Source: Spirochaetales bacterium
Lineage (GTDB): Bacteria > Spirochaetota > Spirochaetia > JAFGDJ01
DNA length: 45,609 bases
Reading direction: 5' to 3'
NCBI GenBank assembly: GCA_016932135.1
Contig: JAFGDJ010000108.1
Coordinates: forward strand, 1-45,609
Shown: piece after piece, positions 1,570 to 6,799 of the stretch
Layout of the letters: each line of letters starts with the position of its first letter
Numbering within the stretch: position 1 is the stretch's first letter
Made by a program: the position numbers and the translations under genes
Notes under the pieces: model-generated
The model's input: the letters and a program-made list of their open reading frames with translations, nothing else
The model's database searches: none
What the model was told of the DNA's origin: nothing

Positions 1570-1766
1570 TGGACATGGAACAAAAGGAATTAGTGGCCCT
1601 CTATCTCTTCCTCGTCCGACATGAAGATCAGTTGGATGGGTTAGTTGAGGGGGTAAAAAAGAAGCTGGAGAAACAATTATATACTTTTATGTCTGTGGGA
1701 GATCTGCAAGATCTTCTTGAGCATGGGAAAAAAACCACCGGTGTGGAAATGGAGAGGAAGCTATGA
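1569..1766 (+). CDS. Small hypothetical protein
   Basis: A 65-residue, charged, probably helical cytoplasmic protein that I do not recognise. The ATG at 1569 overlaps the preceding TGA (TGATG), and its stop overlaps the next ATG (ATGA at 1763-1766), so it is translationally coupled on both sides. That is the main reason to believe it is real. A GTG at 1566 and an ATG at 1575 are alternative starts. Its position between an MBL hydrolase and an outer-membrane protein gives no clear function. Confidence 0.6.
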   Translation: MDMEQKELVALYLFLVRHEDQLDGLVEGVKKKLEKQLYTFMSVGDLQDLLEHGKKTTGVEMERKL

Positions 1767-4700
1767 AGAAGAGAACCTGTTTAGCCGTATTATTCGCTCT
1801 TGTTTTTCTCGGAGTGTTGGGAGCCGACGGCTCGGAGACCCTGAATGATCTCTTGTCCCCCGTTTTCCTTTCCGGTGGTCCAGCCGCGGTTTCTGAACAT
1901 ACTCCCTACGCGGATACGATAAACCCTGCCGCTTCGGCGGATAACCAGCTGGTAACCCTGGATCTGAGTTATTTGCTTCTCACCGGAGACAGGACTACCG
2001 AGGGATGGGGACATGCCGTCAGCCTGGGAGCTTCCTTTCCGGCGAAATTCGGTGTGATCTCCGGGTCGGGGCATTTTTTCCATTCTCCGGCTTTCTCCGA
2101 GGTTAACCTGGGAACCCAGGGGTCTGTGCACGTATCTTTCGCCAAGGACCTTTTCCCAAACTTTCATATAGGTACGGGACTGAACGCCTATTTCGGCAGC
2201 GGATGGGCCTTAGGAATGGACCTGGGGTTTCTTCACCTCCCCGGTGATGTTGGGGCATTCAAGAACCTGGCATGGGGGGCCGCGCTGACCAATCTAGGTT
2301 ACGCTTCGTTTACCGATGCCGCTACGACCGATTATCCGAAGATGTTCAGCCTTCAAGCCGGTGCCGGGGCGACCCTGATGAAGAAAGACCCCTTCCAGAT
2401 TGACGCCACGGTGGACGCTTTTTTCCCGGGATTCACCAATGCCAGGATTCATCTGGGGGGCAATATCATTTTCAAAGAGATGGTGAATCTCTCCTTTGCT
2501 TCCAGGATCGATCTGGCGGAGATGCTCCAGGGGGATTTTTCAGCTCTGGTGCCATCCTTCGGCATCGGTTTCACCCTGGGCTTGAAGGTACAGGAAGAAA
2601 AGGACTTTTTAGGCCTTGAAAAGCGCGGTTGGGGGAACAGTAACCTCACCATAAACACGGCGGCGGCGCCCCTGCAGAACGGGTTGTGGGCTTTCGGCGG
2701 CGGTGTTCATCTCCCCCTGGGTAATCTGGATAATAAGCCGCCGGTTATTTCCATAACCTATGAAGAGACAACCTACATATCTCCGAACCACGACGGTGTT
2801 CAGGATGAACTGGTGGTGCCTATCGATATAGACGACGACAGGTATGTCAAAGAATATAATTTTGTCGTGAAAAATGAAAATGATGAGGTAGTCCGAACCA
2901 TTGTCAACAAGGAAATAAGGGATGAAGATGTGCAATTTCGCACCATTATGGCAAGGCTCTCCTATGTAAAGACGGGAATACCGATCCCCGGGGAAATTCG
3001 ATGGGATGGATTTTCCGACGGCGGCGTGGTGGTCCCGGACGGCACCTACACATTTCAGCTTGATGCCACCGACGATAACGGAAACAAAGGTTACAGTGAA
3101 ACCTATACCGTGGTGGTGGACAATACACCTCCGGCGCTGGAGATAACTGTCCCCGAAGCGGAGGAACTGATTTTCTCTCCCAACGAAGACGGATCCAAGG
3201 ATACCTTACCGATTCAGCAAACCGGATCAGACGAAGATCTCTGGAAAGGAGAAATAAAGACCATGGACGGGAAAACCGTCATGGCCTGGCTTTGGGAAAA
3301 CACATCACCCCCGGCTTTCGATTGGAATGGAAGGGATCAGGAAGGTCAGTTGCTGCCCGACAGTGTGTATCAGTATCTCATTGAAGCCACTGATAGGGCC
3401 GGCAACAGAACAGCGGGAAAATTGACGAATATCATTATCAACACCCAGGAAACTCCCATATCAATCTATATCGATCATTCCTTTTTTGCTCCCGGTATGG
3501 AAGGAAGCAGGAATACGATGGTCTTTACGCCCCAGGTCCCCATAACCACCGGAGTGGAACAATGGAAACTGGAAATCCGAAATACTAATAACCAGGTTGT
3601 AAAGCATTTTACCGGTGAAAAAACCCTTCCGGAACAAATCACCTTTGACGGCAAGAACGACAACGGTTCATCCATCCAGGAAGGAAGATATCTCGGGGTA
3701 CTGGAAGTGCGTTACATAAACGGAAACAGACCTCGAAGTGAAACACCGGTTTTCACCGTAGACAAGACTCGTCCTAAGGCCGAGGTTACGGTAGATCAGC
3801 CGGCGGTGTTCTCTCCCGACGGCGATGGAAAGCGTGATACCATAACGATCTATCAGGACACCTCCACCGAAGGAACCTGGACTGGACTTTTTACCGATTC
3901 TAAGGGAACTACGGTACGACGTTACGTCTGGATTGATCGGGCAGACCCGGTGCTCGTCTGGGATGGTTATGACAGCCTGGGAGGTGTTGTGCCGGACGGT
4001 GATTATACCTACACCCTGGAAGCGGTGGACCGAGCTTTAAACCGCGGTTCCTCATCACCGGTTTCCTTAAGGATCGATACCGTTCCCACCCCTGTGGCGC
4101 TGCAGCATGAACTGGAAGCCTTTTCTCCTAACGGTGACAGTATTAAAGAACAGGTGGTCTTTACTCCAAGACTTGAAGTAACCGGGGGCATTCAGGAGTA
4201 TCGTTTTACCATTACCGAAGAAGGTGATGAGATTGTATGGACCACCGGTGGAAGATCCCGGGTTCCTGAGACAATACGGTGGGACGGGTTTAAAAATGAC
4301 GGCTCCAAGGCCTCCGACGGCATGTATAGGGCTGAAATACAGGTGGTTTATGAAAAGGGCGATACTTCAACAGCCAGGTCACGGCTTATCGAGTTGGATA
4401 CCCGTTATCCCGAGGCGGAAATAGCGGTAGATCTGCTGCTGTTCTCACCCGATGGGGACGGCAGGAAAGACGAGCTGGTGTTCAATCAGACCTCCAGCAA
4501 TGAAACCCTGTGGTCGTCGGAAATCCGCAGTGAGGATGGAACGGTGATCCGTCAATTATTCTGGAAAGGCGCTTTGGAGCCTTTTACCTGGGACGGTACT
4601 GATGAAGCGGGAAACCGCGTGAAAGACGGGGTTTACAGTTACCATGTGGCAGCGGCGGATAAGGCCGGTAACTCCATGAAGGAGTCGCTGGAAGGGATTG

Positions 4701-5761
4701 TCGTCGATACAAGGCCTACTACCATCTTTATTACCCTGGACGCGGAAGGCTTTACTCCCAACGGTGACGGAATACAGGAAGAGATCGCCTTTAATCTCCT
4801 GGTTAATGAAACCTCAGGAATCGCACGATGGACTTTAGAGATCCTGGATGATACAGGAAAGGCTGTTCGTCAGTTTACCGATAGTCGGCTCCCGAAAAAG
4901 ATTATTTGGAACGGAGAGAGGGAGGACGGCAGTATAAAAGACGGTTTCTACAAGACGCGCTTTTCTGTGGAGTACAATAAAGGGAACTTTCCCGTGTCGG
5001 AGACTCAAGCATTCATCCTCGATACATCGCCGCCTCGCCTGGCGGTGAATCCGGCTCCGGTTCCTTTCTCTCCGGATAATGACGGGGTGGACGACGAGCT
5101 TACAATTGAGCTGAAAGCCGATGACGCATCGGGAATCAGGGGATGGGAATTCACCATTCTTGACCGGGAGAGGCATCTCTTTCAGACTTTCCGGGGAGAA
5201 GGCTCCCCGGCGGCATCGATTATATGGGACGGCAAGGGAAAAGACGGTGACCTGGTTCTTTCTGCCGAAGATTACCTCTATATGTTCCAGGTAGTGGACA
5301 ATTTCGGCCTGAAATCCGAAGTACGGGGAGTGATTCCGGTGGATGTTCTGGTAGTGCGGGAAGGCAACAGGCTGAAAATACAGATAGCCAACATAACCTT
5401 CGCTCCCAACAGCCCGGAACTTGATGTCCGTGATCAGACTATTGTCGATAAGAATATCTATGTCATTGAACGGATATCCCAGATTCTGAAAAAATACGCC
5501 AGTTACAGAATAACTATTGAAGGGCACGCGGTGAATTTAAGCTGGGCTGATCCGGTTAAGAGTGAAAGGGAAGAACGGGAAGAACTCCTGGAGCTTTCAA
5601 AACTCAGAGCTCAGACCGTGAAGGACAGGCTGGTAGCATTAGGGGTGGAAGAAGGAAGAATCAGCGTTATCGGTATGGGAGGGACAAAACCCATTGTTCC
5701 TCATGGAGACCTGGATAACCGGTGGAAAAACAGAAGGGTTGAATTCATCCTGGAGAAGTAA
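1763..5761 (+). CDS. OmpA-family outer-membrane protein with eight FlgD-like FSPNGDG repeats
   Basis: A 1332-residue exported protein. Residues 1-20 are a signal peptide. Residues about 25-320 look like a glycine- and aromatic-rich beta-barrel domain of PorV/UPF0164 style. Eight repeats follow, each opening with an F-[ST]-P-[ND]-x-D-G-type motif at residues 339, 471, 575, 683, 787, 894, 997 and 1102, and each resembling FlgD Ig-like or gliding-associated modules with W-D-G and D-x-A-G-N turns. The C-terminal 130 residues are an OmpA-like peptidoglycan-binding domain ending in NRRVEFIL. It probably links the outer membrane to the cell wall. The OmpA domain lacks the usual GHTD aspartate (see findings). 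ATG overlaps the preceding stop; mltG follows 9 bases on. Confidence 0.85.
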   Translation: MKKRTCLAVLFALVFLGVLGADGSETLNDLLSPVFLSGGPAAVSEHTPYADTINPAASADNQLVTLDLSYLLLTGDRTTEGWGHAVSLGASFPAKFGVISGSGHFFHSPAFSEVNLGTQGSVHVSFAKDLFPNFHIGTGLNAYFGSGWALGMDLGFLHLPGDVGAFKNLAWGAALTNLGYASFTDAATTDYPKMFSLQAGAGATLMKKDPFQIDATVDAFFPGFTNARIHLGGNIIFKEMVNLSFASRIDLAEMLQGDFSALVPSFGIGFTLGLKVQEEKDFLGLEKRGWGNSNLTINTAAAPLQNGLWAFGGGVHLPLGNLDNKPPVISITYEETTYISPNHDGVQDELVVPIDIDDDRYVKEYNFVVKNENDEVVRTIVNKEIRDEDVQFRTIMARLSYVKTGIPIPGEIRWDGFSDGGVVVPDGTYTFQLDATDDNGNKGYSETYTVVVDNTPPALEITVPEAEELIFSPNEDGSKDTLPIQQTGSDEDLWKGEIKTMDGKTVMAWLWENTSPPAFDWNGRDQEGQLLPDSVYQYLIEATDRAGNRTAGKLTNIIINTQETPISIYIDHSFFAPGMEGSRNTMVFTPQVPITTGVEQWKLEIRNTNNQVVKHFTGEKTLPEQITFDGKNDNGSSIQEGRYLGVLEVRYINGNRPRSETPVFTVDKTRPKAEVTVDQPAVFSPDGDGKRDTITIYQDTSTEGTWTGLFTDSKGTTVRRYVWIDRADPVLVWDGYDSLGGVVPDGDYTYTLEAVDRALNRGSSSPVSLRIDTVPTPVALQHELEAFSPNGDSIKEQVVFTPRLEVTGGIQEYRFTITEEGDEIVWTTGGRSRVPETIRWDGFKNDGSKASDGMYRAEIQVVYEKGDTSTARSRLIELDTRYPEAEIAVDLLLFSPDGDGRKDELVFNQTSSNETLWSSEIRSEDGTVIRQLFWKGALEPFTWDGTDEAGNRVKDGVYSYHVAAADKAGNSMKESLEGIVVDTRPTTIFITLDAEGFTPNGDGIQEEIAFNLLVNETSGIARWTLEILDDTGKAVRQFTDSRLPKKIIWNGEREDGSIKDGFYKTRFSVEYNKGNFPVSETQAFILDTSPPRLAVNPAPVPFSPDNDGVDDELTIELKADDASGIRGWEFTILDRERHLFQTFRGEGSPAASIIWDGKGKDGDLVLSAEDYLYMFQVVDNFGLKSEVRGVIPVDVLVVREGNRLKIQIANITFAPNSPELDVRDQTIVDKNIYVIERISQILKKYASYRITIEGHAVNLSWADPVKSEREEREELLELSKLRAQTVKDRLVALGVEEGRISVIGMGGTKPIVPHGDLDNRWKNRRVEFILEK

Positions 5762-5770
5762 GGCGGCTGC

Positions 5771-6799
5771 ATGAAACGCGGACTGATCGTGATCCTCCTG
5801 GCCTTGGGAATTATCTTTCTCTTAGGCCTGGGAGGATTATTCTACGGCTATTATCTCAACACACCGTTGGAAGGCATGCCGGAGGAGGGGACTCTTTTCA
5901 CCGTTTCCAAAGGTCAGACCATGGCCGATGTGGCGGTTTCCTTGAAAGAACAGGGTCTTATTCGATCGGAATTTCTCTTTCGGCTGATCGGTAAAGTATA
6001 CGGTACCGGTGGAAAGTTGAAAGCGGGACTCTATCGTGTGGACTCCGGTTTGTCCACCATGGCAATCCATAATATTCTGGTTTCGGGAAATCAGATTCTC
6101 TTTAAAATTACAATTCCCGAAGGATGGACGGCCAGGATGGTGGCGGAACTGCTGGAAAAGAACGGCATAACCGACAGCGGTGATTTTCTCAAGGCCCTTT
6201 CCTCCGACGTGGTGAATCGTGTTCTGGGAATTCCCGATGTTTCGGCGGAGGGGTTTCTTTTTCCCGACACGTATTATTTCCCCCTGGATTATCCCGCGGA
6301 ACGGGTGCTGGAACACCTGGTGAAGACCTTTCAGGCGGTGCTGGAAGAAGTCTCCCCGGACTGGCAGTCCCTGGACGCCGAGACCTTGTATCACCGAGTC
6401 ATTCTGGCCTCTATTGTGGAACGGGAATACCGGGACCCGGAAGAAGCGGCCCTGATGGCGTCGGTCTTTTACAATAGGCTGGACCTGGGGATGACCCTGG
6501 GGTCCTGCGCCACGGTGGTATACGCCTTAACCGAAGAGATGGGTAGAAGCCACCCATCACGCCTTACTTATGCCGACCTGGAAGTTGAATCGGCATACAA
6601 TACCTACCGAAACCCGGGGCTTCCGCCCGGACCCATAGCGAATCCCGGGTATATTGCCCTGCAGGCGGCCTTTAACCCGGTGGAAAGCGACTATCTCTAT
6701 TTTGTTTTGCAGGATCCGGAAGCCGGGCGTCACTATTTCTCGAAAAATCTGGGGGAACACAATCAAGCTTACACCTTATATATCAAGAACACCAGGTGA
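5771..6799 (+). CDS. mltG: Endolytic murein transglycosylase MltG (YceG-like)
   Basis: An inner-membrane lytic transglycosylase that cleaves nascent peptidoglycan strands and helps set glycan length. Residues about 5-27 are a single membrane anchor. A LysM-like segment follows, then the YceG catalytic domain. The catalytic glutamate is expected at E217 in SIVEREY, followed by a VFYNRL segment and the conserved NPGLPPGPIANPG loop near residue 280. Length (342 aa) is normal for the family. It sits between an OmpA protein and dnaG; in many bacteria mltG instead neighbours tmk/holB, so pairing with dnaG is a local arrangement. Confidence 0.95.
   Translation: MKRGLIVILLALGIIFLLGLGGLFYGYYLNTPLEGMPEEGTLFTVSKGQTMADVAVSLKEQGLIRSEFLFRLIGKVYGTGGKLKAGLYRVDSGLSTMAIHNILVSGNQILFKITIPEGWTARMVAELLEKNGITDSGDFLKALSSDVVNRVLGIPDVSAEGFLFPDTYYFPLDYPAERVLEHLVKTFQAVLEEVSPDWQSLDAETLYHRVILASIVEREYRDPEEAALMASVFYNRLDLGMTLGSCATVVYALTEEMGRSHPSRLTYADLEVESAYNTYRNPGLPPGPIANPGYIALQAAFNPVESDYLYFVLQDPEAGRHYFSKNLGEHNQAYTLYIKNTR

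Follow-up and report, generated by a model that had tools for sequence, protein, structure and literature searches.

The locus considered here raises the question of what an OmpA-like domain holds when the residue that contacts the diamino acid of peptidoglycan is missing. In Acinetobacter baumannii OmpA, binding of diaminopimelate (DAP) requires D271 and R286 according to the available part of one report (PMC6572160), as the first-pass annotation of this DNA had stated, and according to the available part of another (PMC5104382) it is the Asp that contacts the DAP head amine. We analyzed a window of 45,609 nucleotides (the whole stretch of DNA under study) from a Spirochaetales bacterium. It encodes a protein whose C-terminal OmpA domain lacks this Asp, a change that had been proposed to reflect adaptation to ornithine-type peptidoglycan.

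The gene for this 1332-amino acid protein lies at positions 1763 to 5761 of the forward strand; the open reading frame, Pfam matches, and structure models outline a signal peptide, a predicted β-barrel, Ig-like repeats, and an OmpA domain. The hydrophobic N terminus, recognized in the sequence by eye (residues 1 to 21, positions 1763 to 1825), is a putative signal peptide. Residues 1 to 310 have no Pfam match. An AlphaFold2 model of residues 1 to 340 (mean pLDDT of 84.7, pTM of 0.79) predicts a 14-stranded barrel at residues 64 to 319 (1952 to 2719). Its best Foldseek matches were 8gl6_F and 6h3i_F of the type 9 translocon (E values of 5.5e-9 and 2.1e-8), a chain that we take to be PorV; porins and FadL followed as weaker matches. 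The resemblance in fold to PorV of type 9 secretion and to FadL is loose, with TM-scores to the two translocon chains of only 0.56 to 0.61, the best match giving 0.56 to 0.59, and rmsd values of 6 to 7.4. Just ahead of the barrel there is an NPA motif (residues 54 to 56), whose N54, P55, and A56 are invariant in 26 sequences; the FadL hatch also has an NPA motif (PMC8407342). The barrel is followed by FlgD/CHU_C/Big-type Ig-like repeats at residues 320 to 1190 (2720 to 5332; PF13860, 122.5 bits, and PF13585, 109.6 bits). The 109.6-bit match is to CHU_C, a type 9 secretion signal domain, and the top structural match of the barrel is a type 9 translocon chain. The predicted architecture suggests as the most likely role a tether in a single chain that would run from the outer membrane to the cell wall, with a PorV/FadL-like barrel, an Ig rod, and a C-terminal OmpA domain.

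A YceG/MltG-family gene (5771 to 6799, forward strand; PF02618, 272.8 bits) starts 9 bases downstream of the OmpA-protein gene and presumably encodes a murein lytic transglycosylase, a wall-cutting enzyme; dnaG and rpoD are the next genes in the window. In 35 of the 77 family loci with enough DNA, a YceG/MltG match lay no more than 1.2 kb downstream in the same orientation.

Base 5387 corresponds to residue 1209 of the protein, and PF00691 covers residues 1212 to 1324 (5396 to 5734) with 52.7 bits against the Pfam cut-off of 27.2. For the C-terminal 142 residues, AlphaFold2 (mean pLDDT of 92.7, pTM of 0.86) predicts the OmpA fold: all of the best 50 structural matches listed are OmpA-like, with Z scores from 13.2 to 16.2. 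The first-pass annotation had read the motifs exactly, with GHAV at residues 1254 to 1257 (5522 to 5533) and the Arg of LSKLRA (1278 to 1283) at 1282 (5606 to 5608). By family alignment, Val1257 occupies the site of the DAP-binding Asp, Arg1282 is the kept carboxylate-binding Arg, and Leu1275 (5585 to 5587) stands at the site of the canonical Asn, so that only the Arg is left of the three residues typical of DAP-binding OmpA domains. The loss of the Asn had not been mentioned. The canonical motif, TD(x)7NxxLSxxRA in the available part of PMC5104382, gives a spacing of 8 from Asp site to Asn site; since this spacing is 18 in the window protein, the excess of about 10 residues described earlier is correct. 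It had been described as a loop, while in the AlphaFold2 model the inserted stretch is predicted to be helical, a point likewise missing from the earlier description. Helix 74 to 102 of the model corresponds to residues 1264 to 1292 (5552 to 5638), and the extra residues would therefore extend the LSxxRA helix at its start.

The domain departs from the TAD(x)6E/QxxLSxxRA motif of Tp0624 domain 3 by GHAV and by Leu at the Asn site, while another protein of the window's genome, L003 (GHTADVGTPESQMELSIQRA), fits this motif. The best NCBIfam match, at residues 833 to 1330, is the 581-position Lsa66_OmpA model (NF053608; Lsa66/LIC10258 of Leptospira), which also combines an Ig-like part with an OmpA domain. 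The match reaches 343.9 bits against a curated cut-off of 700, and Leptospira is DAP-type in the available part of PMC3726837; what is available of PMC3130794 treats Lsa66 as an adhesin. MotB identity was rejected (30.5 bits against a cut-off of 300 for NF005195).

A domain search over 392 genomes of the phylum matched 263, and a scan of named genomes with the domain gave 80 loci, all from spirochaetes. A profile search of the collected loci recovered 105 distinct domains, 103 of which constitute the family of the window protein; the other two, a MotB (L001) and the Tp0624-like protein (L003), come from one genome. Asp is present in none of the 102 family members that cover its site (V 65, N 29, A 7, L 1; the 103rd does not cover it). 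The Asn site holds Leu in 101 of 103 and Asn in none, and the Arg of LSxxRA is kept in 103 of 103. The loss of Asp is a conserved family trait and not a peculiarity of the window protein. The inserted stretch is also constrained, with Glu1270 in 101 of 102 members and E, Q, N, or D at residue 1271 in all 102 (67, 28, 4, and 3, respectively); Asp-to-Asn spacings cluster at 13 and 18. By eye, no obvious coupling was seen between residues 1257 and 1271 (V-E 40, V-Q 22, N-E 19, N-Q 6). We rejected chance or sequencing error as the source of the Asp loss, since 102 relatives agree, as well as pseudogene decay, since the frame is open, the Arg is invariant, and the family is constrained. The window's genome has six PF00691 matches, and only MotB among them carries the Asp. 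Further Asp-less relatives in this genome are L005 (G000:C153), with the motif GHAVR, and L006 (G000:C72), with AHALN; L005 is a clear paralogue of the window protein (51% identity).

Wall type was estimated from MurE and DapF. The DNPR motif of MurE binds the second carboxylate of meso-DAP, without being the sole determinant, according to the available part of PMC3829189. In the class Spirochaetia, EDPR replaces DNPR in all 24 MurE sequences read, including that of the window's own genome (DEDPR). Outside Spirochaetia and the lineage f30 considered below, DNPR was read in 38 cases, PEDPR in 2, NDDT or NDDL in 4, and TDNPLG and DNSR in 1 each. The unusual motifs here include PEDPR (G001 and G046), NDDT/NDDL (G015, G053, G038, and G060), and TDNPLG (G074), at loci L315 to L321, L338 to L341, and L345. 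DapF was detected above the cut-off in 0 of 16 non-DNPR genomes versus 10 of 12 DNPR/DNQR genomes, the two misses being G009 and G018; matches below the cut-off occurred in G374 and G074. The window's own genome, which is 82% complete, had no DapF match. Absence of dapF is not proof of wall type, as a Treponema with the other DAP/lysine genes, but with dapF not among them, is described in the available part of PMC4176475. By description, Spirochaetales have L-ornithine and Leptospirales DAP (PMC3726837, as far as available), and L-ornithine is likewise given for Salinispira in the available part of PMC4511686. By analogy with its relatives and from its own MurE, the window's organism may be expected to have an ornithine-type wall. 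Two of the genomes, G056 and G076, we infer to be Treponema and Borrelia, respectively.

To compare OmpA domains across Spirochaetota, we tallied 238 of the 326 PF00691 matches in 50 genomes, grouped by lineage and MurE motif. The source sets contributed 6 of 6 matches (the window's own genome), 146 of 201, 30 of 62, 26 of 26, and 30 of 31. For the 201-match set, the best 150 were listed and four of them left out: L009, L010, and L020, all Asp-less members of the window family, and a second, equal-scoring stretch in G037. Within this set, 50 of the 83 Spirochaetia matches were read. The MurE motif was read in 23 of the 25 tally genomes of the non-DNPR clade; G027 and G067 (lineage f23) were placed by family. 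Domains were classed as MotB-type by an NWxLS segment and, in the final tally, a GH-D type motif, so that Asn is kept in this class by construction. An earlier tally whose MotB rule did not include Asp gave Asp in 14 of 14 and 23 of 23 MotB-type domains, and the Asp count is therefore not a product of the definition. In an NCBIfam control, MotB was the best match for all 10 MotB-type proteins tried, above the cut-off in 4 of them.

Among the matches listed, non-stator domains of the 16 Spirochaetia genomes have Asp in 0 of 42 (A 37, V 3, N 1, L 1), Asn in 0 of 42, and Arg in 42 of 42, while their MotB-type domains have Asp in 14 of 14. The other non-DNPR lineages gave the same picture, with Asp in 0 of 12 non-stator and 4 of 4 MotB-type domains in f23 (4 genomes) and in 0 of 18 (one Glu) and 5 of 5, respectively, in f36 and f49 (5 genomes), again among the matches listed. 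For the whole non-DNPR clade, the matches listed thus comprise 72 non-stator domains, none with Asp, none with Asn, and all with Arg, and 23 MotB-type domains, all with Asp. In contrast, in 18 DNPR-type genomes (one of them DNSR), 77 of 81 non-stator domains listed have Asp, 78 have Asn, and all 81 have Arg; Asp is present in 26 of 27 MotB-type domains listed. Four non-stator domains listed from DNPR-type genomes are thus also without Asp. Since MotB keeps Asp in non-DNPR genomes, the wall of these genomes does not in itself preclude an Asp. In the other Asp-less families the loops are near-canonical and lack the inserted helix stretch of the window family. A 175-aa open frame in one Spirochaetia genome (L165, G019) encodes an odd OmpA-like domain that carries GHSAK and, in the stretch read, lacks LSxxRA.

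How many times the change occurred was assessed on trees and orthologues. In a species tree built from an RpoB domain of 28 genomes (f30, f49, and G060 lie outside it), the 15 non-DNPR genomes are on one side of a branch with support of 95/91, and the DNPR genome G003 adjoins them. As the non-DNPR genomes form one branch, the association at the species level amounts to a single event. Orthologues of the window protein with Ig repeats and an OmpA domain occur in 10 DNPR-type genomes, where all 10 have Asp and all 10 have Asn, while the 19 orthologues in the non-DNPR clade have neither. GHTD is kept in the orthologue from the sister DNPR lineage, and the Ig region of the window protein matches L300 of that lineage (G003) in one stretch of more than 800 residues (398 bits). 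The N-terminal barrel of the window protein has no sequence match at an E value of 1 to those of the DNPR-type proteins.

Two further groups, of proteins of ~360 to 470 aa, have non-OmpA regions that match across the divide (E values of 2.7e-40 and 4.4e-30), with no match between the two groups at 1e-5. The 96 rows of the gene tree and the 48 loci of the N-terminal comparison, of which 47 were used, were hand-picked. The domain tree gave three changes of Asp state when the adjoining segment was included and four with 85 shared columns; with the segment included, the OmpA domains of the window family branch within their Asp-bearing orthologues. AU tests on the domain tree did not reject a single origin of the Asp-less domains (P values of 0.27 and 0.50). 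The count of three protein families therefore rests on whole-protein comparison, and domain replacement is possible. Overall, by comparison of sequences, the loss of Asp and Asn appears linked to non-DAP peptidoglycan as a correlation that holds across three protein families on one branch of the species tree.

One lineage does not follow this correlation in the expected way. The f30 set comprises 24 genomes of one genus, with a GC content of 27 to 30% in five loci, and is probably Brachyspira, a name that we infer. Brachyspira is described as ornithine-type in the available part of PMC3726837. In f30, however, MurE reads DNQR in 5 of 7 genomes and DNPR in the other 2, and DapF is present in 2 of 3 genomes tested. 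Of the 28 non-stator domains listed from 7 genomes, 17 keep Asp and all 28 keep Asn; Asp is also kept in the 7 MotB-type domains listed. Some f30 domains (loci L443 to L466) have AHTS or GNSS, with Asp changed to Ser and Asn kept. As judged from MurE, DapF, and OmpA sequences, the probable Brachyspira genomes thus look DAP-type, in conflict with the ornithine-type description of the order. The idea of an adaptation to the ornithine wall is therefore borne out as a correlation, between non-DNPR and DNPR genomes and between orthologues, and is weakened by MotB, which keeps Asp, and by the probable Brachyspira.

Similar pockets have been described before. The top PDB sequence match of the window domain (E value of 2.2e-10) is domain 3 of Tp0624 from Treponema pallidum (PDB 5JIR), which aligns with the window model over 125 residues (Z score of 15.1, rmsd of 2.7); both have lost the Asp and kept the Arg. 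Tp0624 differs by GHTAD with Ala at the Asp site, by Glu/Gln at the Asn site, by a short loop, and by domains D1 and D2 in front instead of a barrel and Ig repeats. The available part of PMC5104382 reports the Asp-to-Ala change in Tp0624 and 15 homologues, states that neither crystal soaking nor ITC showed binding of DAP, and speculates on an ornithine-type wall and D-glutamate. BpiP (BB_0167) of Borrelia burgdorferi (PDB 3OON) also matches the window model in OmpA fold (Z score of 15.4, rmsd of 2.0, 112 residues) and resembles it in having the Asp replaced, in an ornithine-type organism. According to the available part of PMC8092773, BpiP has Glu at the Asp site, E315A abolishes wall binding, relapsing-fever species have Ala there, and the protein binds the Borrelia wall and not that of E. 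coli or B. subtilis. It differs from the window protein by the Glu and by being a ~400-aa protein of another family; the N-terminal region of a Borrelia relative (L163) ties it to family A, one of the two groups of ~360- to 470-aa proteins. In Acinetobacter OmpA (3TD3/3TD4/3TD5) the fold is the same (Z score of 13.4 for 3td5_A) and Arg286 corresponds to Arg1282; unlike the window domain, it has D271, binds DAP, and has an 8-residue spacing. The ornithine idea is thus already in print for two other proteins, Tp0624 and BpiP (PMC5104382 and PMC8092773). We did not find the wider pattern (the whole non-stator set, Asn together with Asp, the exemption of MotB, and the tie to MurE and DapF) in the literature searched, which excluded most subscription papers.

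We give a slightly better than even chance to the explanation that the OmpA pocket was rebuilt in non-stator domains when meso-DAP-type MurE and DapF were lost, with an ornithine-type wall as the likely cause. The Asp, which would meet the DAP amine, and the neighboring Asn would have gone (here to Val and Leu) and the Arg for the carboxylate would have stayed, while in the window family the helix behind the pocket would have been lengthened by an acidic turn. The change would have reached non-stator OmpA domains of at least three protein families on one branch, that of the ancestor of the class Spirochaetia and two further lineages. Ornithine has an amine at the place in question and no second carboxylate. 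Ornithine-type stems would thus lack the zwitterionic DAP head that Asp and Arg clamp together, and selection for Asp and Asn would likely be lifted: an acid that is useful only if amine and carboxylate share one carbon would be released. The pocket probably would still grip the stem through the Arg and another carboxylate, and MotB presumably kept Asp and Asn because its grip depends on something else. Several observations count against this preferred explanation. Loss of the acid with the Arg kept is the reverse of what is expected for an amine-only ligand; since BpiP needs its Glu, an acid is useful in at least one species, and E315A, which creates the common Ala state, lost wall binding in the available part of that report; the near-invariant Glu1270 means that the window family may bring its own acid; among the matches listed, 17 of the 28 non-stator domains of f30 keep Asp and all 28 keep Asn; and four non-stator domains listed from DNPR-type genomes are without Asp. 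The single event on the species tree and the single domain origin that the domain tree allows weigh on the same side.

The BpiP mutant also bears on the view that Asp-less domains no longer bind peptidoglycan and that the fold is kept for another partner, such as another protein or dimerization. The lack of DAP binding by Tp0624 in soaked crystals and ITC (PMC5104382), the loss of wall binding in the Ala state of BpiP (PMC8092773), both as given in the available parts of these reports, and the replacement of both ligand-contacting polar residues in the window protein all point in this direction. We nevertheless consider it unlikely, as all 103 family members and all 72 non-stator domains listed from the clade retain the Arg, the domain stays terminal on a barrel-plus-Ig chain in three families, and, in the available parts of the same reports, BpiP binds its own wall and Tp0624 was assayed with DAP and not with ornithine-type muropeptides. 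An acid from the inserted helix, Glu1270 or Glu/Gln1271, might instead replace the Asp, so that the pocket would go on binding an amine, in this case the one of ornithine. Residue 1270 is Glu in 101 of 102 members and 1271 is always E, Q, N, or D; by helix arithmetic, 1271 would lie on the face of Arg1282 (eleven residues, ~20 degrees), and BpiP has a Glu at the Asp site itself in the available part of PMC8092773. This seems rather improbable to us, because the insert is peculiar to the window family while other Asp-less families have near-canonical loops, and because 1271 is Gln in 28 of 102.

History without function would also leave a single branch on the species tree: an Asp-less domain that arose once, which the domain tree does not reject, could have spread by duplication and domain replacement, the coincidence with wall chemistry being due to chance. 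This is very unlikely in our view, since relatives with Asp occur across the divide for each of three families that differ in their N-terminal regions, the OmpA domains of the window family branch within their Asp-bearing orthologues when the adjoining segment is included in the tree, MotB, which has its own constraint, is untouched, and the residues at the Asp site are varied (A, V, N, T, and others). A fuller version of the preferred explanation, to which we give somewhat less than an even chance, is that an ancestral loss of DAP re-coded the whole non-stator OmpA set together, with Asp and Asn out and Arg kept in at least three unrelated families, the tether adding its own helical acidic extension and MotB being spared since its target is a different part of the wall.

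Overall, the loss of Asp is real, conserved, and part of a larger pattern that was partly anticipated in print. Should the pattern hold, the diamino acid of the wall could be told from the two polar residues of the OmpA pocket: Asp and Asn would form a readable code for a DAP wall, and sequences would allow a guess at the wall chemistry of spirochaetes that are uncultured. From the exemption of MotB it would follow that stators act independently of the third stem residue. The family offers a natural experiment, one protein with and without Asp across a change of wall chemistry and MotB as an internal control in the same genomes, so that it becomes testable what OmpA domains and MotB actually hold.
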